Shown piece after piece: positions 46,238 to 55,321 of a stretch of 64,000 nt of DNA (position 1 is the first letter of the stretch; every line of letters starts with the position of its first letter). Both the position numbers and the translations under genes were made by a program. This DNA comes from Catellatospora sp. KI3. Lineage in GTDB: Bacteria; Actinomycetota; Actinomycetes; Mycobacteriales; Micromonosporaceae. The stretch is taken from NCBI RefSeq assembly GCF_029948125.1, contig NZ_JASAMB010000011.1:186001-250000 (forward strand), read 5' to 3'. The notes beneath the pieces were generated by a model. The model saw nothing but the letters and a program-made list of their open reading frames with translations, did no database searches and was not told where the DNA came from.

Positions 46238-46295
46238 CCTGCCCCCTCAGTCGACGACCACCCCATCCCAGCAGACGCCACCGACACCCCGTTAA

Positions 46296-46339
46296 GAAGG
46301 GGCCCTTCCGCTACGTAATGCGATAAGAAGGGCCCCTTC
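46296..46339. repeat. GAAGGGGCCCTTC inverted pair (terminator-like repeat)
   Basis: GAAGGGGCCCTTC at 46296-46308 pairs with its exact inverse complement at 46327-46339, leaving an 18-nt loop. Each arm is also nearly palindromic. It lies between the DUF3224 gene and the repeat array before the protease gene, and probably isolates the protease promoter. Confidence 0.65.
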
Positions 46340-46354
46340 CTTTCGCCTGGGGCG

Positions 46355-46418
46355 CAACCGGCGCACAACCTTGCGGCAGCCCTGGCGCAGCCCTGCGACA
46401 GCCGGTGGGCCGTGCACT
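46355..46418 (+). promoter_or_regulatory. Five 11-bp-spaced direct repeats, candidate SARP site of the M4 protease
   Basis: The pentamer CA(A/G)CC occurs at 46355, 46366, 46377, 46388 and 46399, exactly 11 bp apart. The last three read CAGCCCT, CAGCCCT and CAGCCGG with 4-bp spacers. SARP regulators bind heptameric direct repeats with 11-bp periodicity just upstream of the -10. Here TGCACT at 46413-46418 starts 9 nt after the last pentamer and is a weak -10. The ATG is 34 nt further on. Confidence 0.6.
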
Positions 46419-46451
46419 GGGCTCATGGCGTACACGGAAGGGAGAATCGTC

Positions 46452-48365
46452 ATGAGACGGTGGCGGATGAGCGCCGCGCTCGCGGTCGCGCTGGTCGGCG
46501 GCAGCATGGTGGCGCTGCAGTCGGGTTCGGCGCAGGCGGCGGCGACGCCGGAGGAGACGGCGATCGCGCGGGCCAACGAGGCGATCCGGTCGCACCCGGA
46601 CCTGTTCCAGGTGTCCGAAGGTGACACGTTCACGGTGTGGCGGGCCAACGTGGCGCGCAGCGGGGCCGCGCACGTCCGGTTCACCCGCGAGTTCAAGGGG
46701 CTGCCCGTGCTGGGCGGTGACCTCGTGGTGCACCTGGCCGCCGACGGCGGCCTCGACGGGGCTTCGCTCACGCTGGCCCGGCCGGTCGGCGTGGACGTGG
46801 CGCCGAAGGTCGGCGCCGAAGAGGCCGCCAAGGCCGCGCGGGAGGCGCTGCGGGCCCGGGAGGTCGGTACGCCGCAGCTGGCGGTCGACGCGGTCGGCGG
46901 CACCGGCGTGCTGGCGTGGGAGGTGCCGGTGACGCTGGAGGAGGGCACCGCCGAGGCGGTCGTGTCGGCCGTCGACGGCAGCGTGGTGCGCTCGGCGCGG
47001 CTGGAGCAGGAGGTCGCCGGCACCGGCGACAGCGTCTACTCCGGCACGGTGACCCTGCAGACGACCCTGCAGGGCGGGCAGTACAAGCTGATCGACCCGA
47101 CCCGGGGCAACGCGACCACCTGCAACCTGAACCACGCCATGTCGGGCACCTGTACGACGTTCTCCGACGCTGACAATGTCTGGGGTGACGGGAACCCGGC
47201 CACCGACCAGAGCGCGGCGGTCGACGTGGCGTACGGCGCGGCCAACGCGTTCGACTACTACAAGAACGTGCTGGGCCGCAACGGCGTCTTCGACAACGGC
47301 GTGGGTGTCACCTCCCGGGTGCACCGGGGCGTGGACTGGGTCAACGCCCGCTGGAACAGCACCGCCAAGGTGATGGAGTACGGCGACGGCGAGGGCGGCG
47401 TCCATCCGCTGGTGTCGCTGGACGTGGCCGGCCACGAGATGTCGCACGGCGTGACGCAGGGCGCGGTGCCGCCCGGCGGCCTGGTCTACTCCGGCGAGTC
47501 GGGCGGGCTCAACGAGTCCACCAGCGACATCTTCGGCACGATGACCGAGTTCTACGCCAACAACCCGCAGGACACCCCCGACTACCTGCTCGGGGAGGAG
47601 ATCGACATCTTCGGCAACGGGGACCCGCTGCGCTACATGTACGACCCGGACGCCGACGGCGCCTCGAAGAACTGCTTCTACAACGGTGTGGGCAACCTCG
47701 ACCCGCACTACTCCTCGGGCGTGGCCAACCACATGTTCTTCATGCTGGCCGAGGGCAGCGGGCAGACCGCGTACGGCACCAGCCCGACCTGCGACGGCTC
47801 GTCGGTGGTCGGCATCGGCCGGGACAAGGCCGCCAAGATCTGGTACAACGCGCTGAACAACTACTTCACCTCCGGTGAGACTTTCGCGCAGGCCCGCGAG
47901 GACACCCTCGACTCGGCCAAGGAGCTGTACGGCAAGTGCAGCTCGGCGTACTTCGCGGTGGCCAGGGCCTGGGCGGCGGTGAAGGTCGGCCAGCCGCTGT
48001 CCTGGCTGAGCTGCCTCAAGATCTTCCACATCGTGTGGATCGAGTGGCCGCGCAACCCGATCCCGGACCCGGGCCCGCTGAAGTGGGTCACCAAGGTCCA
48101 GGAGAAGGGCGTCCAGGAGGTCGTCGAGGTGGGCGTGCACGTCAGCCACCCGCGCCGCGGCGACCTGCAGATCGACCTGGTGTCGCCCAGCGGGAGGTCG
48201 TACCGGCTCAAGAGCGCCGACCGCGAGGACCGGGGTGCCGACGTCGACGAGACGTTCCCGGTGCGGCTCGGGCAGGTGCTGGAGCCCGGTGAGTGGACGC
48301 TGGTGGTCGAGGACACCGTCAAGGGGGAGGGCGGCCGGCTGCTCGGCTGGACGCTGCTCTACTGA
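46452..48365 (+). CDS. Secreted M4-family metalloprotease (thermolysin-like) with P/Homo B domain
   Basis: 637 residues. Signal peptide about 1-33, then a fungalysin/thermolysin propeptide and PepSY-like pro-region (about 35-195) that is normally cut off. The zinc site is HEMSH (328-332) with the third ligand Glu in GGLNES. GVANHMFFMLAEGSG fits the M4 C-terminal domain. After it, from about 535, comes a proprotein-convertase P/Homo B beta-sandwich (VSHPRRGDLQIDLVSPSG, GWTLLY). GGGAGAA precedes the ATG. A broad extracellular endoprotease is expected. The upstream repeat array suggests control by the SARP regulator encoded at 48989. Confidence 0.93.
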   Translation: MRRWRMSAALAVALVGGSMVALQSGSAQAAATPEETAIARANEAIRSHPDLFQVSEGDTFTVWRANVARSGAAHVRFTREFKGLPVLGGDLVVHLAADGGLDGASLTLARPVGVDVAPKVGAEEAAKAAREALRAREVGTPQLAVDAVGGTGVLAWEVPVTLEEGTAEAVVSAVDGSVVRSARLEQEVAGTGDSVYSGTVTLQTTLQGGQYKLIDPTRGNATTCNLNHAMSGTCTTFSDADNVWGDGNPATDQSAAVDVAYGAANAFDYYKNVLGRNGVFDNGVGVTSRVHRGVDWVNARWNSTAKVMEYGDGEGGVHPLVSLDVAGHEMSHGVTQGAVPPGGLVYSGESGGLNESTSDIFGTMTEFYANNPQDTPDYLLGEEIDIFGNGDPLRYMYDPDADGASKNCFYNGVGNLDPHYSSGVANHMFFMLAEGSGQTAYGTSPTCDGSSVVGIGRDKAAKIWYNALNNYFTSGETFAQAREDTLDSAKELYGKCSSAYFAVARAWAAVKVGQPLSWLSCLKIFHIVWIEWPRNPIPDPGPLKWVTKVQEKGVQEVVEVGVHVSHPRRGDLQIDLVSPSGRSYRLKSADREDRGADVDETFPVRLGQVLEPGEWTLVVEDTVKGEGGRLLGWTLLY

Positions 48366-48417
48366 TCGATGAACGTCCGTGCCTGGTCGGCGGCCCCACG
48401 GCCGTCGGCCAGGCGCA

Positions 48418-48448
48418 CAACCTTTCCACAACCGTGCCGCCCTAGCGT
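48418..48448 (+). promoter_or_regulatory. Two 11-bp-spaced CACAACC repeats and -10, candidate SARP site
   Basis: CACAACC-tttc-CACAACC (CAACC at 48418 and 48429) has the same 11-bp period and core as the array before the M4 protease gene. TAGCGT at 48443-48448 fits a -10 element and starts 9 nt after the last CAACC, the same spacing as in the other promoter. The start codon follows 54 nt later. Confidence 0.6.
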
Positions 48449-48502
48449 CGTCGGGGTGGCCGTCCTCCCGGCCACACCGTGCTTGAGCTCTGGAGTGGAC
48501 AC

Positions 48503-48940
48503 ATGAGACGCATCGTACGTCGGCTGGGCGCCGCGGCCCTGACCGTGTTGACGACGATCCTGCTGGTCCCGGCCCCGGCGCAGGCGGCGCCTGCCGGGCT
48601 GGCCTGCGGCAGCGACTGCTGGGTGCTGTCCAAGGACGCGATCTGCTGGGAGACCGAGCAGTGCCCGATCGACCTGGTGATCAAGGGCAAGATCGGTAAG
48701 GGCGGCGTCGCGGTCCGGTTCTGGACCGAGGACCTGCGCGCCCAGGCGCCCGACGACTACGAGCCGGTCAAGGAGGGCCTGCTGGAGCTGGTCGAGGGCG
48801 ACACGGAGCGCAGCATCACGCTCCGGCTGGTCGCCGACGGGGTCGCCGAGCGCGACGAGACGCTGCGGGTGTGGCTGACGACCGGGCTCGGCGAGCCGCT
48901 CGCCGTGACGGTGACCATCCTCGACGCCGAGAAGCGCTGA
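48503..48940 (+). CDS. Small secreted Calx-beta-like protein
   Basis: 145 residues. Signal peptide about 1-35 ending APAQAA. The mature part has four cysteines near its start (ACGSDCW, AICWETEQC). The C-terminal half reads DDYEPVKEGLLELVEGDTE, then DGVAERDETLRVWL and VTVTILD, the pattern of a Calx-beta domain, a calcium-binding beta-sandwich. The role is unknown; it may bind a surface or another secreted protein. GGAG lies 8 nt before the ATG. It follows the M4 protease gene by 137 bp and shares its type of promoter. Confidence 0.75.
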   Translation: MRRIVRRLGAAALTVLTTILLVPAPAQAAPAGLACGSDCWVLSKDAICWETEQCPIDLVIKGKIGKGGVAVRFWTEDLRAQAPDDYEPVKEGLLELVEGDTERSITLRLVADGVAERDETLRVWLTTGLGEPLAVTVTILDAEKR

Positions 48941-48954
48941 CAGGGTGCGGGGTG

Positions 48955-48989
48955 GCGGCGGGTCCGGGTCTACCGGGCCCGCCGCTTTT
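48955..48989. terminator. Bidirectional terminator with T tract
   Basis: 13-bp stem with one G-U pair (48955-48967 with 48973-48985, 5-nt loop) followed by TTTT at 48986-48989. It lies between the Calx-like gene and the converging SARP regulator gene. Confidence 0.8.
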
Positions 48990-51900
48990 CAGTCCAGGCC
49001 GGCCAGGGCGTCGGCCTCGGCCAGGGCGTTGGCCTTGCGGTACAGGTCGATCGCGTGCTGCCGGTGCTCGGCGGCCGTGTCGCGGTCACCGGCGAGGTCG
49101 GCCAGCGCGGCCAGGTCGCGCAGGACGCAGGCGGTCTCGTACGGGTCCGGCGCCCGGCTGCGCAGCGCCAGCGCCAGGTGCAGGAACCCGCCCGCGGCCA
49201 CCGGGTCGGGCCGGTGCAGGTGCACCCGCCCGATGCTGGCCAGCGCCACCGACTCCAGGTGCTGGTCGGCCAGCTCCTGGCTGAGCGCCAGCGCCTGCTC
49301 GAACTCGGCCAGTGCCGCGTCGTGGTCGCCGCCGCGCAGGTGCGCGGTGCCGATGGTGGTGCGGGTGTCGGCCTCGTAGCGGCGGTCACCCGCCAGGCGG
49401 CGTACGGCCAGTGCCTGGTGCAGGTATGACAGGGCGTCGGCGAGCTCGCCCCGGGCCAGGCGCGACTGCCCCAGGCTGCTCAGCGCGGCCGCCTCCAGGC
49501 GGGCGTTGGGCAGCTCGCGGCTCAGCGCCAGGGCGCGGGTCAGGTACGCGTCGGACAGCTCCGGGCGGCCCATCCGGACGTAGGCGTCGCCGATGTTGTT
49601 GAGCGACAGCGCGATCCCGAGCCGGTTGTCGATGCCGGTGTGCAGCGCCAGCGCCTGCTGGTACGCCTCGACGGCCTCGTCGAAGCGGCGCAGCCCCGCG
49701 CAGGCCACCGCGATGTTGTTGTGCACGTGCCCCTCGCCGCGCTGGTCGCCGCAGCGGCGCATCAGCGCCAGGGCGCCCTGCAGCGCGTCGATCGCCTCGT
49801 CGTGCCGGTGCGTCTGGATCAGCGCCACCCCGTACGCGCTGCGCATCAGCCCCTCGGCCGCCGGGTCGCCGTCCACCTGCGCGGCCCCCACCGCCTGGCG
49901 GCACAGCAGCACCCGGTCGCCCCAGTGCCCGCGCGAGTCGTAGAAGCCGGTCAGCAGGTAGGTGAGCTGCCAGGCGGCGGTGGCGTGGCCGTGGCGGGCC
50001 GCGTACGACACGACCGGCAGCAGGTTGGGCCGCTCGCCGTCGAGGAACGCCAGCGCCGCGTGGTGGTCGGCGAACTCCGCCGGCCGCGCCACCTGCGGCC
50101 GCACCCGGTCGCGGCCGGGGTCGACGATCCGGTTGGCGGCGTCGGCGACGCCCAGGTACCAGTCCACGATCCGGCCCGCCGCCGCGGTCCGCTCGGCGGC
50201 GCCGTCCTCGGTCTCGGCGCGCTCGCGGGCGTACAGCCGCAGCAGGTCGTGCAGCCGGTGCCGCCCCGGCGCCTCCTCGGTGACCAGGTGCGCGGTGAGC
50301 AGCTCAGCCAGCGCCCGCCGGGCCGGTCCGGGCCGCTCGCCCAGCGCCGCCTGCGCGACCCCCGCGCCGAACACCGGCCCGGGATGCTGCCCGAGCAGCC
50401 GGAACAGGCGGGCCGCGGCGGGCGACAGGGCCCGGTAGGCCCCGGCGAACACGGCGCGCACGCTGCGCGCGTCGCCGGGCACGGCCAGCTCGTCGAGGCG
50501 GTCCTCATCGTTGAGCTCGTTGTTCAGCTCGGCCAGCGCCCGGCCGGGGCGGGCGGCGAGCTTCGCGGCGGCGATGCGCAGCGCCAGCGGCATCCGGTCG
50601 CACAGGTCCGCGAGCTCGGCGGCGGCCTCCGGCTCGGCCCGTACCCGCTGCTCGCCCAGCACCCGCGCCAGCAGCGCCACCGCCTCGTGCCGGTCGAGCG
50701 CGCCGAGGTCCACCGCGCGTACGTCGTGGTGCGTGGCCAGGGCGGTCGGCTGGTGGCGGCTGGTCACCAGCAGCAGGCTCGCGCCACCGGCCGGGACCAG
50801 CGGCAGGACCTGCTCGGCGTCGGCGGCGTCGTCCAGCACGAGCAGCACCCGCCGCTCGTGCACCAGGCCGCGGTAGAGCGCCGCCCGCGCCGCCGGGGCG
50901 GCGGGCAGCCGGTTCTCGGCGACGCCGAGGCTGGTCAGCACATGCGCGAGGGCTTCGGCCGGGTCGAGGGCGCCGACGGGGTCGTGGCCGCCGAGGTCGA
51001 GGAAGATCTGACCGTCGGGGAAGTGCGGGGCGGCCCGGTGCGCCCACTGCACGGCCAGGGCGGACTTGCCCATACCGGCGGGTCCGGCGATGTGGCCGAT
51101 CCGCCGCTGCCCCGCCAGCAGCGTGTCCAACGCCGACAGCTGCGCCTCGCGGCCGGTGAAGTGGCCGGCGAGGGCGGGCAGCTGCGCCGGGCGCGGTCCG
51201 GCGGCGACGGCCGGGACCTGCGGCGCGGCCGCCTGCACCGGCGCTGCCGGGGCGGCCAGCGCCGGGTCCTCGCGCAGGACGGCGGTGTGCAGGCGCTGCA
51301 GGGCCGGGCCGGGGTCGGCGCCGAGCTCGTCGGCCAGGTGCACGCGCAGCCGCCGGTACGCCTCCAGCGCGTCGGCGGGCCGCCCGCACCGGTGCAGCGC
51401 CAGCATGTACAGCTCGACCACCCGTTCGCGGTGCGGATGGTCGACCAGCAGCCGCTCCAGCTCGCCGACGGCCTGCCGGTGGCGGCCCAGCCGCAGCTCG
51501 GCGTCCCACAGCTGCTCGATCGCGCACAGCCGCACCTCGTTGAGGCGGGCGGCCTCGGCGGCGGCCCAGCCGGTCGGCTCGCCGTCGGCCAGCGCGTCGC
51601 CGCGCCACAGCAGCAGGGCCTCGCGCAGCTCGGCCGCGGCCCGGTCGGGGTCGTCGGCGTCCAGGCGCGCCCGCGCCGAGGCGACAGCGGACTCGAACAG
51701 GTGCGCGTCGACCGACTGCGCCGGGATGTCCAGCCGGTAGCCGGTGTGCTGGGTGCTCAGGGCGCCGTTGAGCCCGCACGCGTCCAGCGCCTGGCGTACC
51801 CGGGCGATGTGGCTGTGCAGGGTCTTCACGGCCGTGCGCGGCGGGTCCCAGCCCCACAGCGCGTCGATGAGCCGGGGCTGGTGCACGACGGTGCCCGCGT

Positions 51901-52012
51901 TCATCGCGAGCACCGCCAGCAGCGCCCGCTGCCGGGCCCCGATCAGCGCGGCCGGGCCGCCGGTGCCCGACGCCTCGATCGGGCCGAGCACGCGCACCCG
52001 CGACTCGCTCAC
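48989..52012 (-). CDS. AfsR/SARP-family regulator with NB-ARC and TPR domains
   Basis: 1007 residues, full-length AfsR architecture. The N-terminal OmpR-like winged helix (about 1-90, GARQRALLAVLAMNAG and LWGWDPP) binds DNA. It is followed by the bacterial transcriptional activation domain (about 95-245, GDALADG, ALHRCGRPADALEAYRRLR). The NB-ARC ATPase (about 285-570) has Walker A GPAGMGKSALA and VLLVLDDAADA. TPR repeats fill about 640-1007. The GTG at 52012 has AAGGGG upstream. SARPs activate genes by binding 11-bp-period direct repeats near -10 elements. Two such sites lie next door, before the M4 protease and Calx-like genes, making them likely targets. AfsR itself is controlled by Ser/Thr kinases. 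Confidence 0.93.
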   Translation of the reverse strand: MSESRVRVLGPIEASGTGGPAALIGARQRALLAVLAMNAGTVVHQPRLIDALWGWDPPRTAVKTLHSHIARVRQALDACGLNGALSTQHTGYRLDIPAQSVDAHLFESAVASARARLDADDPDRAAAELREALLLWRGDALADGEPTGWAAAEAARLNEVRLCAIEQLWDAELRLGRHRQAVGELERLLVDHPHRERVVELYMLALHRCGRPADALEAYRRLRVHLADELGADPGPALQRLHTAVLREDPALAAPAAPVQAAAPQVPAVAAGPRPAQLPALAGHFTGREAQLSALDTLLAGQRRIGHIAGPAGMGKSALAVQWAHRAAPHFPDGQIFLDLGGHDPVGALDPAEALAHVLTSLGVAENRLPAAPAARAALYRGLVHERRVLLVLDDAADAEQVLPLVPAGGASLLLVTSRHQPTALATHHDVRAVDLGALDRHEAVALLARVLGEQRVRAEPEAAAELADLCDRMPLALRIAAAKLAARPGRALAELNNELNDEDRLDELAVPGDARSVRAVFAGAYRALSPAAARLFRLLGQHPGPVFGAGVAQAALGERPGPARRALAELLTAHLVTEEAPGRHRLHDLLRLYARERAETEDGAAERTAAAGRIVDWYLGVADAANRIVDPGRDRVRPQVARPAEFADHHAALAFLDGERPNLLPVVSYAARHGHATAAWQLTYLLTGFYDSRGHWGDRVLLCRQAVGAAQVDGDPAAEGLMRSAYGVALIQTHRHDEAIDALQGALALMRRCGDQRGEGHVHNNIAVACAGLRRFDEAVEAYQQALALHTGIDNRLGIALSLNNIGDAYVRMGRPELSDAYLTRALALSRELPNARLEAAALSSLGQSRLARGELADALSYLHQALAVRRLAGDRRYEADTRTTIGTAHLRGGDHDAALAEFEQALALSQELADQHLESVALASIGRVHLHRPDPVAAGGFLHLALALRSRAPDPYETACVLRDLAALADLAGDRDTAAEHRQHAIDLYRKANALAEADALAGLD

Positions 52013-52100
52013 CGCGCACCCCTTTCCGCCGGCTCCCACTCAGACTGGCAAACCATCCGGGGGTACGGCCGCAGACTGTCGCGATGCCGTCGCAGCACGG

Positions 52101-52397
52101 TCAGGCGGTCCAGCCCAGCCACGCCTCCCCGGCGCTGATCACGGCGAACCAGAACGCCGCGGCGACCACCGGCACGGCCAGCACCCACCAGGGGCGGGTG
52201 CGCCACCACATGATGCTCGCGATGAACAGCGCCGCCCAGACGATCATGAGTACGGCGACCGCCCAGCCCGGGGCGAGCAGGCCGCTGGCGGCGTACCAGA
52301 CGGAGATGAGCAGGTGGCCGGCGAGCCCGACCATTCTGGCGATCTTCGCGGCGAGACTCAGCTGCGTCGCCGCCTGCGGCGCCGGTGCCTCGGTCAT
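52101..52397 (-). CDS. Small membrane protein
   Basis: 98 residues with three hydrophobic segments (about 22-42, 45-66 and 70-90). A tryptophan pair (IMWWRTRPWW) lies between the last two. No family recognised. The ATG at 52397 has AAAGGAG upstream. It is divergent from the LAL regulator and lies 88 bp upstream of the SARP gene on the same strand, so it could be co-transcribed with it. Confidence 0.7.
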   Translation of the reverse strand: MTEAPAPQAATQLSLAAKIARMVGLAGHLLISVWYAASGLLAPGWAVAVLMIVWAALFIASIMWWRTRPWWVLAVPVVAAAFWFAVISAGEAWLGWTA

Positions 52398-52513
52398 CCT
52401 CGCTCCTTTCGGCGCGGCCACGTGCCGCGGTTGGCAGCAGCGTGCCAGAGCGGACACCGCGGAGCAATCAACGATGAGTCCGGCGTACGCCCCGGCCGGT
52501 CTAGGCTGGGCAC

Positions 52514-55321
52514 GTGACGGTCGTCATGCCCGTTCTCGCGGGTCGGGACGCGGAGCTGGCCCGACTAGACGCGGCCGCCCGCGCGGCCGCGGCCGGGCAG
52601 GGCGGCATGGTCCTGATCGTCGGCGAGAGCGGCATCGGCAAGACCACCCTGCTCGACGTGGCCGCCGACCGCTGCCGCGACCTGGGCATGCGGGTGCACC
52701 AGGGCGCGGCTGAAGAACTCGAACAGGAGATCCCCTTCGCCACCCTCGCCGCCTGCCTCGGCATCGGACCCGCCAGCACCGACCCGGACCTGGCGCCGCT
52801 GTCGGGCCTGCTGCGCGGCGAGGACGTGTTCGTCCACGGCGTCGCCGCCGCCGACCACGAGTACGCCATCGGCGAGGCCGTGCTGGCCCTGGCCGACACC
52901 TGGACCACCACCCGGCCCCTCGTGCTGATCGTCGACGATCTGCAGTGGGCCGACACCGCCAGCCTGCACGTCCTCGACCGGCTCACCGAGGGCCTGGCGA
53001 GCATGCCGCTGCTGCTCATCCTGGCCAAACGGGCCGCCGACCGCCGCGGCGAGGTGGCCGCCTTCTGGTACTGCCTGCGCGACCGGGGCGCGGCGCAGCT
53101 GCGCCTGGCGTCGCTGTCCGACGACGCCGTCGCCGACCAGGTCACCGCGCTGCTCGGCGCCCCGCCCGGACCGCGGCTGCGCGGCCTGCTCGACGGCGCC
53201 GCGGGCAACCCTCTCTACATCCGCGAACTGGTCACCGCGCTGCGCGACGACCAGTCCGTCCACGTCGCCGACGGCTGCGCCGAACTCGGCGACCGCGCCA
53301 GCGGTGACCTGCCCGGATCACTGGTCGGCGTGATCGGGCGCCGCCTGGACGCCCTGCCCGGATCCACCCGCGACGCCCTGCGTACCGCCGCCGTGCTCGG
53401 CGGCTCGCTCAGCGCGGCCGAACTCGCCGAAGTGCTGGACCGCCCAGCCGAGGACATCGCCGCCGCCCTGGGCATCGCCGCGCGCGGCGGGCTGATCACG
53501 ACCGGACCCCGGACCCGGTTCCGGCACGCGCTGATCTGCGAGGTGCTCGCCGCCCAGGTCCCGGCCACGGTACGGGCCGCGCTGCACCTGCGCGGGGCGA
53601 GGGTGCTGGCGCGCCGGGGCGCCTCGGTCACCCGGGTCGCCGAACAGCTCGCCCAGGGCGCGACGGTCGATCCGGCGATGCGCGACTGGCTGGCCGAGCA
53701 CGCCCGTACCCTCATCGCCCGCGCCAGCGGCCGCGCCGTGCTGCTGCTGCGCCGCGCCCTGTCCACCGGGGACCCGGCCCGCGCCGACGAGCTGCGGCTG
53801 CACCTGGTCCGGGCCCTGCTCTGGCACGGCGAGCTAGACGCCGCCGAGGCGAACGCGCGCCAGGCGCTCACCGCCGCGCCCGCCGCCGACCGCGCCTCGC
53901 TGTACTGGCTCCTCGTGCAGGCCTGCTACCGGCAGGGACGCCTCGACGACGCGCTCGCCGTCGTCCAGACGGCCGTGGCCGACCCCGACGTCGGCGAGGT
54001 GAGACGGGGACGGCTGCACGGGATCGCCGCCGTGGCCAGGATGTTCCAGGTGCGCTTCGACGACGCGGCCGAGCAGGCACGACGTGCCCTGGACAGCGGC
54101 GCGGCCACCGGTGACGAGCACACGCTGGGGCTGGGCGAGCTGGCCATGGCCGCCGTCACGACCATCGGCGGCGACGTGCCCGGCGGGCTGGCCCTGGCCT
54201 GCCGGGCACAGCGGCGGCTCGGGCAGGGAGTGCTGCCGGACCTGCAGGTCGACCCGGACGCGACGGTGGCGTACTGCCTGATCGGCCTCGACCGGCTCGC
54301 CGAGGCCGACGAGGCGCTGGCCGTGGCCGCCGAGCGCAACCGGCGCACCGGCGGGGCGTACCTCGCGTTCACCCACCGGCTGCGCGCCGCCGTGCGGTTC
54401 TTCGACGGCCGCTGGGACGACGCCCTGCTGGAGATCCAGACCGGCCTGGAGACCGCCGACCCGCTGGGCGAAGCAGGGCGGCTGCGCGGGCTCGCCGACG
54501 TCATCCGCGTGCACCGGGGCCGCTGGGCCGAGGTGGGCGCGACCCTGTCCGAGCAGGCCGAATCGGTGTACACAGGCGGTGATCAGAGCTACGCGCGCTG
54601 GGCGTACGCGCTGACCCGGGAGGCGTCGGCCGGGGCGGCCGAGGCGCTGCGGCTGCTGCTGCCGGTGTGGGAGCAGGCGGACGGGATCTTTCCGAGGCGG
54701 GTGGTGTACCGGATCTGCCCGGACCTGGCCCGAATGGCCGCCGCCTGCGGGGAGCGGGAGCGGCTGGCGCGGCTGGTGGCGGAGCTGGACGAGGTCGCGG
54801 GGGAGGAGCCGTGCCCGAGCCTGGGGGCGACCGTGCGGCTGTGCCGGGCGCTGACCGAGGACGACGTCGCGTCGATGCTCGCGGCGGCGGAGTCGTACGC
54901 GCAGGCCGGGTGGCGGCTGTGGGAGGGGTACGCGTACGAGAACGCGGGAGTGCTGCTCGCGCGGGCGGGGCAGGCCGGACCGGCCCGGCAGCAGGTGGAC
55001 CGGGCGCTGGCGATCTACGAGCGGCTCGACGCGGAGTGGGACGCGGGGCGGGCGGGGGCGCGGCTGCGGGAGGCGGGCGTGCGACGCGGGGTGAAGGGGC
55101 GGCGGGGGCGGCCGAGGCACGGCTGGGCGGCGCTGACCGAGACCGAGCGCAGGGTGGCCCTTATGGTGGCCGAGGGGATGTCGAATCCGGAGGTCGCGGC
55201 GCAGATGTTCCTGTCCCGGCGTACGGTGCAGTCGCACGTCTCCAGCATCCTGGCCAAACTGGAGATCAGCTCGCGGGTGGAGCTGGCGGTGCTCGCCACG
55301 CGTGAAGCCGCACTGGACTGA
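52514..55321 (+). CDS. LAL-type LuxR regulator with AAA/STAND ATPase
   Basis: 935 residues. N-terminal ATPase (about 1-330) with Walker A GESGIGKTT and Walker B VLIVDDLQWAD. The central region is a long TPR-like helical solenoid. The C-terminal LuxR helix-turn-helix (about 868-930) reads LTETERRVALMVAEGMSNPE and VSSILAKLEI. Large ATP-binding LuxR regulators often activate antibiotic or sugar-use genes. No target is evident; the NRPS cluster is 28 kb away. The GTG at 52514 or the ATG four codons later could be the start. Confidence 0.9.
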   Translation: MTVVMPVLAGRDAELARLDAAARAAAAGQGGMVLIVGESGIGKTTLLDVAADRCRDLGMRVHQGAAEELEQEIPFATLAACLGIGPASTDPDLAPLSGLLRGEDVFVHGVAAADHEYAIGEAVLALADTWTTTRPLVLIVDDLQWADTASLHVLDRLTEGLASMPLLLILAKRAADRRGEVAAFWYCLRDRGAAQLRLASLSDDAVADQVTALLGAPPGPRLRGLLDGAAGNPLYIRELVTALRDDQSVHVADGCAELGDRASGDLPGSLVGVIGRRLDALPGSTRDALRTAAVLGGSLSAAELAEVLDRPAEDIAAALGIAARGGLITTGPRTRFRHALICEVLAAQVPATVRAALHLRGARVLARRGASVTRVAEQLAQGATVDPAMRDWLAEHARTLIARASGRAVLLLRRALSTGDPARADELRLHLVRALLWHGELDAAEANARQALTAAPAADRASLYWLLVQACYRQGRLDDALAVVQTAVADPDVGEVRRGRLHGIAAVARMFQVRFDDAAEQARRALDSGAATGDEHTLGLGELAMAAVTTIGGDVPGGLALACRAQRRLGQGVLPDLQVDPDATVAYCLIGLDRLAEADEALAVAAERNRRTGGAYLAFTHRLRAAVRFFDGRWDDALLEIQTGLETADPLGEAGRLRGLADVIRVHRGRWAEVGATLSEQAESVYTGGDQSYARWAYALTREASAGAAEALRLLLPVWEQADGIFPRRVVYRICPDLARMAAACGERERLARLVAELDEVAGEEPCPSLGATVRLCRALTEDDVASMLAAAESYAQAGWRLWEGYAYENAGVLLARAGQAGPARQQVDRALAIYERLDAEWDAGRAGARLREAGVRRGVKGRRGRPRHGWAALTETERRVALMVAEGMSNPEVAAQMFLSRRTVQSHVSSILAKLEISSRVELAVLATREAALD

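Follow-up and report, generated by a model that had tools for sequence, protein, structure and literature searches.

SARPs are regulators that are known, and have mainly been studied, as switches of antibiotic genes. SARP operators with two or three heptamers are already known (PMC10972967, PMC3367932), and the AfsR dimer occupies a stretch from about −40 to −19 at the afsS promoter (PMC10936776), where Arg 92 of the protein contacts a base (PMC10936776). Among the response regulators, the PhoP motif TCACAGC occurs in PMC4832192. The window analysed here, a stretch of 64,000 nucleotides from an organism within or near Catellatospora (Micromonosporaceae), contains five direct repeats, flanked by a divergent DUF3224 gene and by the gene of a secreted M4 protease (Table 1). 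As judged from its sequence and that of its relatives, this array is very probably a multi-unit operator of the neighbouring SARP encoded at 48989-52039.

Table 1. Features of the locus, with positions counted from the first letter of the window
Feature	Position	Strand	Remarks
Predicted five-unit SARP operator	46353..46403	+	11-bp-spaced heptamers; conserved in eight relatives
Array heptamers	46353-46359, 46364-46370, 46375-46381, 46386-46392, 46397-46403	+	
−10-like hexamer TGCACT, weak match	46413..46418	+	9 bp past last heptamer; position conserved
Gene of a secreted thermolysin-like (M4) protease that has a propeptide and a P domain	46452..48365	+	Pfam FTP, Peptidase_M4, Peptidase_M4_C, P_proprotein
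Second predicted operator, CACAACC TTTC CACAACC, 9 bp, TAGCGT	48416..48448	+	Conserved in eight M4-bearing relatives and in G001
Small secreted Calx-beta protein gene	48503..48940	+	Pfam Calx-beta; GTG start at 48479 possible
AfsR-type large SARP, proposed activator, convergent with the Calx-beta gene	48989..52039	−	Pfam; AfsR 8hvr, E 1.4e-35
Small membrane-protein gene, possible module member	52101..52457	−	Upstream of the SARP gene; adjoins it in seven of eight relatives

A sequence-only reading of the window had pointed to five CA(A/G)CC words with a period of 11 bp, and these were borne out: CAACC begins at 46355 and 46366 and CAGCC at 46377, 46388 and 46399, with a spacing of exactly 11 over 46355-46403. 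The corresponding heptamers are, in order, CGCAACC, CACAACC, GGCAGCC, CGCAGCC and GACAGCC, three of which agree with CACAACC at just four or five of the seven bases. The array thus shows the direct repeats in steps of 11 bp (or 22 bp) that mark a SARP operator. When the 64 kb window was subjected to 60 second-order Markov shuffles and both strands were searched, runs of two units occurred 2.8 times and runs of three units 0.03 times per shuffle, while runs of four or five units appeared in none of the 60. The scan for the same spacing that had been proposed was carried out over 303 kb of the genome, namely the window and twelve further regions of 20 kb, each surrounding another M4-type or P-domain gene; runs of at least four units at period 11 proved unique to the array, and no run of four was found in this sample at any other period between 6 and 30. 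A general protease promoter was considered and rejected, because no period-11 run of three or more units occurs in the twelve 20-kb stretches around the other M4-type or P-domain genes of the genome. The source genome contains unusually many secreted metalloprotease-type genes, with 21 matches to the M4/P-domain query.

Immediately 5′ of the array (window 46290-46340) there are two near-palindromes, GAAGGGGCCCTTC and GAAGGGCCCCTTC, 31 bp apart. Two are also present in G005 and one in G009, while the six remaining upstream regions of the alignment lack them; the near-palindromes are possibly the terminator of the preceding gene or a mobile repeat of the species group.

Orthologs of the M4 gene were found in nine of the 11 genus genomes searched, and in all nine Catellatospora genomes that carry the gene it is preceded by the array, with three to five units: five in the window, four in G005, four in G009 (one of them deviant, CAGAACC) and three in each of the other six. 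The earlier statement that five repeats exceed the usual two or three is correct for the window but has to be read within this family of promoters, where five is the top of a range since the relatives have three (six genomes) or four (two genomes). The M4, Calx-beta and convergent SARP genes occur together in all eight relatives (20-kb stretches); only the two closest relatives also have the DUF3224 and LAL genes next to the cassette, and a HAD gene adjoins it in one. Named records with SARPs 66-92% identical to that of the window belong to C. tritici, C. bangladeshensis, C. paridis, C. methionotrophica, C. sichuanensis and C. coxensis. Of the two genomes that lack an M4 ortholog, G001 keeps the SARP ortholog, the Calx-beta gene and its site; on the tree its SARP nests inside the others, for which reason the M4 gene was probably lost in this genome. 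The best SARP match of the other, G007, is only 52% identical.

Past the array, the hexamer TGCACT is followed by a purine-rich stretch and then by the ATG at 46452. The repeats had been placed just upstream of a −10, and the position of this element is indeed conserved in the nine orthologous M4 promoters, but TGCACT makes a weak −10. Six of the promoters have TACCCC at this position and three have TGCACT; in all nine the last unit is GACAGCC or GGCAGCC, with the hexamer 9 bp on. In a SARP site some 8 bp are expected between the last repeat and the −10; here the predicted −10 lies 9 bp away with the heptamer as cut, the exact value varying with where the unit is cut. Transcription of the M4 gene would start near 46424; if the hexamer is placed at −12 to −7, the two 11-bp units nearest to it would span about −40 to −19. 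In the clade of the window a higher number of units accompanies weaker promoter-proximal words (five of the nine promoters were tabulated), and it may be speculated that extra units perhaps offset weak proximal words through cooperation.

The SARP gene encodes, in this order, an OmpR-like DNA-binding domain (Trans_reg_C), a BTAD domain, an NB-ARC domain and a TPR region (TPR_12), which is the arrangement of AfsR-type proteins, and the product matches AfsR (the 8hvr match lying within the SARP domain) and EmbR. A full-length AfsR/SARP gene had been announced 2.5 kb from the array; the gene is of the AfsR type, but its frame is 48989-52039, it is convergent, and it is its 3′ end that lies 2.6 kb from the array, the start being 5.6 kb away. 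No biosynthetic genes were found near the SARP gene among seven proteins scanned, and the conserved neighbours are the M4 and Calx-beta genes. Beyond the SARP gene lies a large LuxR-type (LAL) regulator gene (window 52514-55321, + strand).

A second predicted operator, absent from the sequence-only reading, precedes the Calx-beta gene. This promoter reads CACAACC-TTTC-CACAACC in the nine M4-bearing genomes, and the hexamer 9 bp beyond the pair is TAGCGT, TACGGT or TACCGT. The Calx-beta start codon of G001 and of the six remoter relatives is only 7-8 bases past the hexamer, and the mRNA of these genomes is therefore likely to be leaderless. A model of the Calx-beta protein (mean pLDDT 78) matches calcium-binding domain 1 of NCX1 (2dpk, E 1.3e-6); the protein would thus resemble this domain, and calcium binding is a putative property. 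The prediction that the SARP acts on a secreted protease agrees with the presence of the array before every M4 ortholog, but the general predicted target is the Calx-beta gene and the protease is a lineage-specific addition, because G001 retains the SARP, the Calx-beta gene and the site without a protease ortholog.

Catellatospora has four clades of this SARP, comprising 24 genes, and in each clade the SARP gene faces a convergent Calx-beta gene, with another gene in between in c2 of the source genome (G000). The operator word is CACAACC in clades c1 and c2. Clade c3 (six genomes) shows CACAAGC-N4-CACAAGC-N9-GATGAT, the first unit being CACAAGG in L078, and clade c4 (three genomes) has words of the TGCAAG/CACAAG type with CAGGAT, CAGGCT or GAGGAT 9 bp on. 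An earlier look at c3 and c4 had used the CA(A/G)CC word, which gave one unrelated match (L088), and a strict TANNNT rule; the resulting notion that these nine loci are siteless was rejected, the regions upstream of their Calx-beta genes carrying the changed words CACAAGC and TGCAAG. Clade c2 has a second target, a secreted protein of about 350 residues with no Pfam match, whose operator is strict in three of five genomes; in L082 it deviates by one base, and in L084 it is degraded.

The period was assessed in a set of 44 loci whose SARPs are at least 45% identical, 24 of them in the genus and 20 in other genera of the family, by counting pairs of the word (C/T)(A/G)CA(A/G)(C/G)N in the region before the partner gene. 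A pair with period 11 is present in 38 of the 44 loci, compared with 0-3 loci for periods 8-10 and 12-18; on the opposite strand the count is 0-3 at all periods (two at period 11), and inside the SARP gene it is 0-4. Exactly 9 bp past the pair, 33 of the 38 loci have a hexamer NANNNW, any other offset giving at most three, and 20 of 38 have TA, against five at the next best offset. A previous figure of 23 of 26 sites with TA 9 bp on was discounted as proof, several of those sites having been chosen by a T(A/G) rule from which the 38-locus test is free. The six loci with no pair in the scanned region are L079, L183, L223, L224, L225 and L227: L079 and L224 do have a pair, but at a greater distance (2.1 kb in L224), L183 has CACCACC twice, and L223, L225 and L227 have no pair of the tested kind. 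Among five SARPs below 45% identity, a pair was found on the partner strand in none and on the other strand in one.

Comparable sites extend to the Pseudonocardiales, where nine loci (eight from Actinokineospora and one from Saccharothrix) with SARPs 50-53% identical were sampled. Eight of the nine contain CACAACC-N4-(CACAACC or TGCAACC)-N9-TA, three before the convergent partner and five elsewhere in the 15-kb locus; L245 has no such site. Seven of these eight sites, all but the one in L249, precede secreted proteins that look like one another and like Calx-beta proteins. Two such proteins were compared with Pfam Calx-beta: that of L242 passes (55.3 bits) and that of L246 falls just under the cut-off (24.2 versus 27). 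An additional site in L249 precedes a VWA protein that shares 42% identity, across 302 residues, with the second c2 target. In ten loci with SARPs 30-39% identical no site was found in the partner region, and elsewhere there were two weak word pairs without TA.

The secreted domain of about 300 residues is common to L079:7592-8650 (− strand) and L249:4213-5817 (− strand), with 42% identity and no Pfam match in L079; both of its carriers, the Catellatospora protein and the Actinokineospora VWA protein, sit behind SARP-type sites. In G020, a three-unit site on the other side of the SARP gene precedes a GntR/aminotransferase regulator gene (L180:2040-3494, − strand), MocR-like by reading, and G046 has a similar GntR/aminotransferase gene that is partial at a contig end and was judged by eye.

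For the wider search, a profile of 33 positions covering the two heptamers, the spacer, the 9 bp and the hexamer was built from 22 training sites. In the 8.2 Mb genome its top four hits are all at SARP cassettes, two here and two at a paralog on contig 4 that has its own Calx-beta gene, and the next hit has an E value of 0.23. Since the profile had been trained on these four sites among others, the informative point is the lack of further strong sites in the genome; weaker or differing sites could be missed. With a profile made from the sites of the first cassette only, the contig 4 Calx-beta site was the best outside this locus (E 0.018), and the other contig 4 site was not recovered at E up to 5. 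The top 19 hits in the 11 genus genomes, many of them training sites, are all at SARP cassettes, and the 20th (E 0.037) lies elsewhere; in G007, where SARPs of clades c1 and c2 are absent, no hit falls below E 0.127. Across 51 family genomes, eight of the 17 hits at E up to 0.05 are at SARP cassettes, including two in G046 and one in G020, outside the genus, and the other nine, at no known cassette, may be due to chance. Self-control of the SARP was rejected, the genome search having given no strong hit before the gene at 48989-52039.

With residues numbered by alignment to AfsR, the recognition helix (84-95) of the window's SARP is KTLHSHIARVRQ, and Arg 92 is retained. Clade c1 has Lys at position 84 and His at 87, and clade c3 has Gln, Ala or Gly at 84 and Tyr at 87. 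All 14 loci with Tyr 87 show G at base 6 of the distal heptamer, and none of the 24 loci with His or Gln does; in the proximal heptamer, G6 occurs in all 11 loci without Lys or Arg at position 84 and in none of the remaining 27. In the three loci that combine Arg 84 with Tyr 87 the two heptamers differ, one being of each sort, and residues 84 and 87 agree with base 6 of the heptamers in all 38 readable loci, the table omitting L183 and L226, which lack the DNA-binding part, L223, whose helix was unread, and L224, L225 and L227. This agreement reflects just one and two independent changes on the tree, with no significance, and the link between helix and operator is therefore suggestive only.

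Several other explanations of the array were weighed. The short unit and the skewed composition would favour chance repeats in G+C-rich DNA, but none of the 60 shuffles gave four or more units, nine of nine orthologs keep position and spacing, and period 11 stands out over the 44 loci, which leaves this explanation a negligible probability. The repeats could instead be read by an OmpR/PhoB-type response regulator related to PhoP, with the SARP as a bystander. PhoP of M. tuberculosis recognizes direct repeats of a 7-bp motif with a 4-bp spacer (PMC4832192), Streptomyces PhoP recognizes the AfsR site of afsS too (PMC10972967), and the SARP DNA-binding domain is itself distantly PhoP-like (2pmu, E 0.001). 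However, a PhoP-type box would be expected to serve a large regulon unlinked to SARPs, whereas the four strong hits of the genome are all at SARP cassettes (on which the profile was trained) and the genome and genus searches gave no large further set. The way in which operator base 6 tracks the SARP helix residues and the lack of such partner sites for SARPs below 45% identity also speak against a PhoP relative, as may the lack of good sites in G007, and we consider this explanation very improbable.

It is very improbable that the SARP binds but represses, or that regulation in vivo is due to the contig 4 paralog. Cross-talk is possible, since c1 and c2 have CACAACC as their common heptamer and a nearly identical recognition helix, but five to six of the ten c1 genomes (G002, G003, G004, G008 and G010) showed no c2 SARP, or a c1 SARP alone, at E up to 1e-170 and keep the array. 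As for repression, units just before the −10 and a weak hexamer fit AfsR-like activation (PMC10936776). Control of the array by the neighbouring SARP, as the sequence-only reading had predicted, is supported by synteny, the second site, the hits at SARP cassettes, the paralogous and distant loci and the covariation of helix and base. From these data we infer SARP binding, and activation rather than repression. Protomers of the SARP would sit next to one another on the heptamers, each taking up one 11-bp turn of the helix; with the last unit 9 bp before a poor −10, the bound protein could therefore hold RNA polymerase at the M4 gene. The same SARP would act likewise through the two-unit operator at the Calx-beta gene, and its NB-ARC/TPR part may sense a signal.

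A broader reading is offered tentatively, its probability falling somewhat short of even: an old SARP subfamily of Micromonosporaceae and Pseudonocardiales may run a Calx-beta-centred secretome module rather than antibiotic genes, with residues 84 and 87 setting base 6 and with new secreted genes plugged in through heptamer arrays. Examples would be the M4 protease in Catellatospora, the secreted protein of the sister cassette (about 350 residues) and, in Actinokineospora fastidiosa, the VWA protein related to it. The sequences link a conserved SARP lineage to secreted proteins, in contrast to the antibiotic focus of the field. The natural variation of operator and helix would make SARP sequence specificity directly testable with two residues and one base, and a heptamer pair followed after 9 bp by a −10 provides a rule by which large-SARP targets can be sought beyond antibiotic clusters. 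In open-licence PubMed Central, no paper was found that has 'Calx-beta' together with 'SARP', or that combines SARP, metalloprotease, Streptomyces and direct repeats. Within the literature searched, the word CACAAC(C), the presence of up to five units, the secreted-protein targets and the Calx-beta-linked SARP subfamily appear to be new.

Compared with known systems, the locus shares with M. tuberculosis PhoP the 7-bp words and 4-bp spacers (PMC4832192); PhoP, however, is a response regulator, whereas sites of the window's type are tied to SARP genes. The operators of PimR, SanG and PolR also consist of heptamers with 4-bp spacers, and their word CGGCAAG has the CAAG core in common with the operators of the c3 and c4 sister SARPs (PMC3367932); the PimR site has three units and no −35 overlap (PMC3367932). 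These regulators differ in being SARP-LAL proteins encoded in antibiotic clusters, the window's word being CACAAC(C)/CAGCC. AfsR and the afs box of afsS in Streptomyces coelicolor offer a further parallel: a large SARP with NOD and TPR parts, a homologous SARP domain with Arg 92, and two direct repeats of 11 bp immediately ahead of a suboptimal −10 (PMC10936776). The AfsR repeat is nevertheless a different one, CGTT(T/C)ATCGNN (PMC10972967), present in two units against up to five here, and the AfsR targets are afsS and antibiotic control, in place of the secreted protease and the Calx-beta protein of the present locus.
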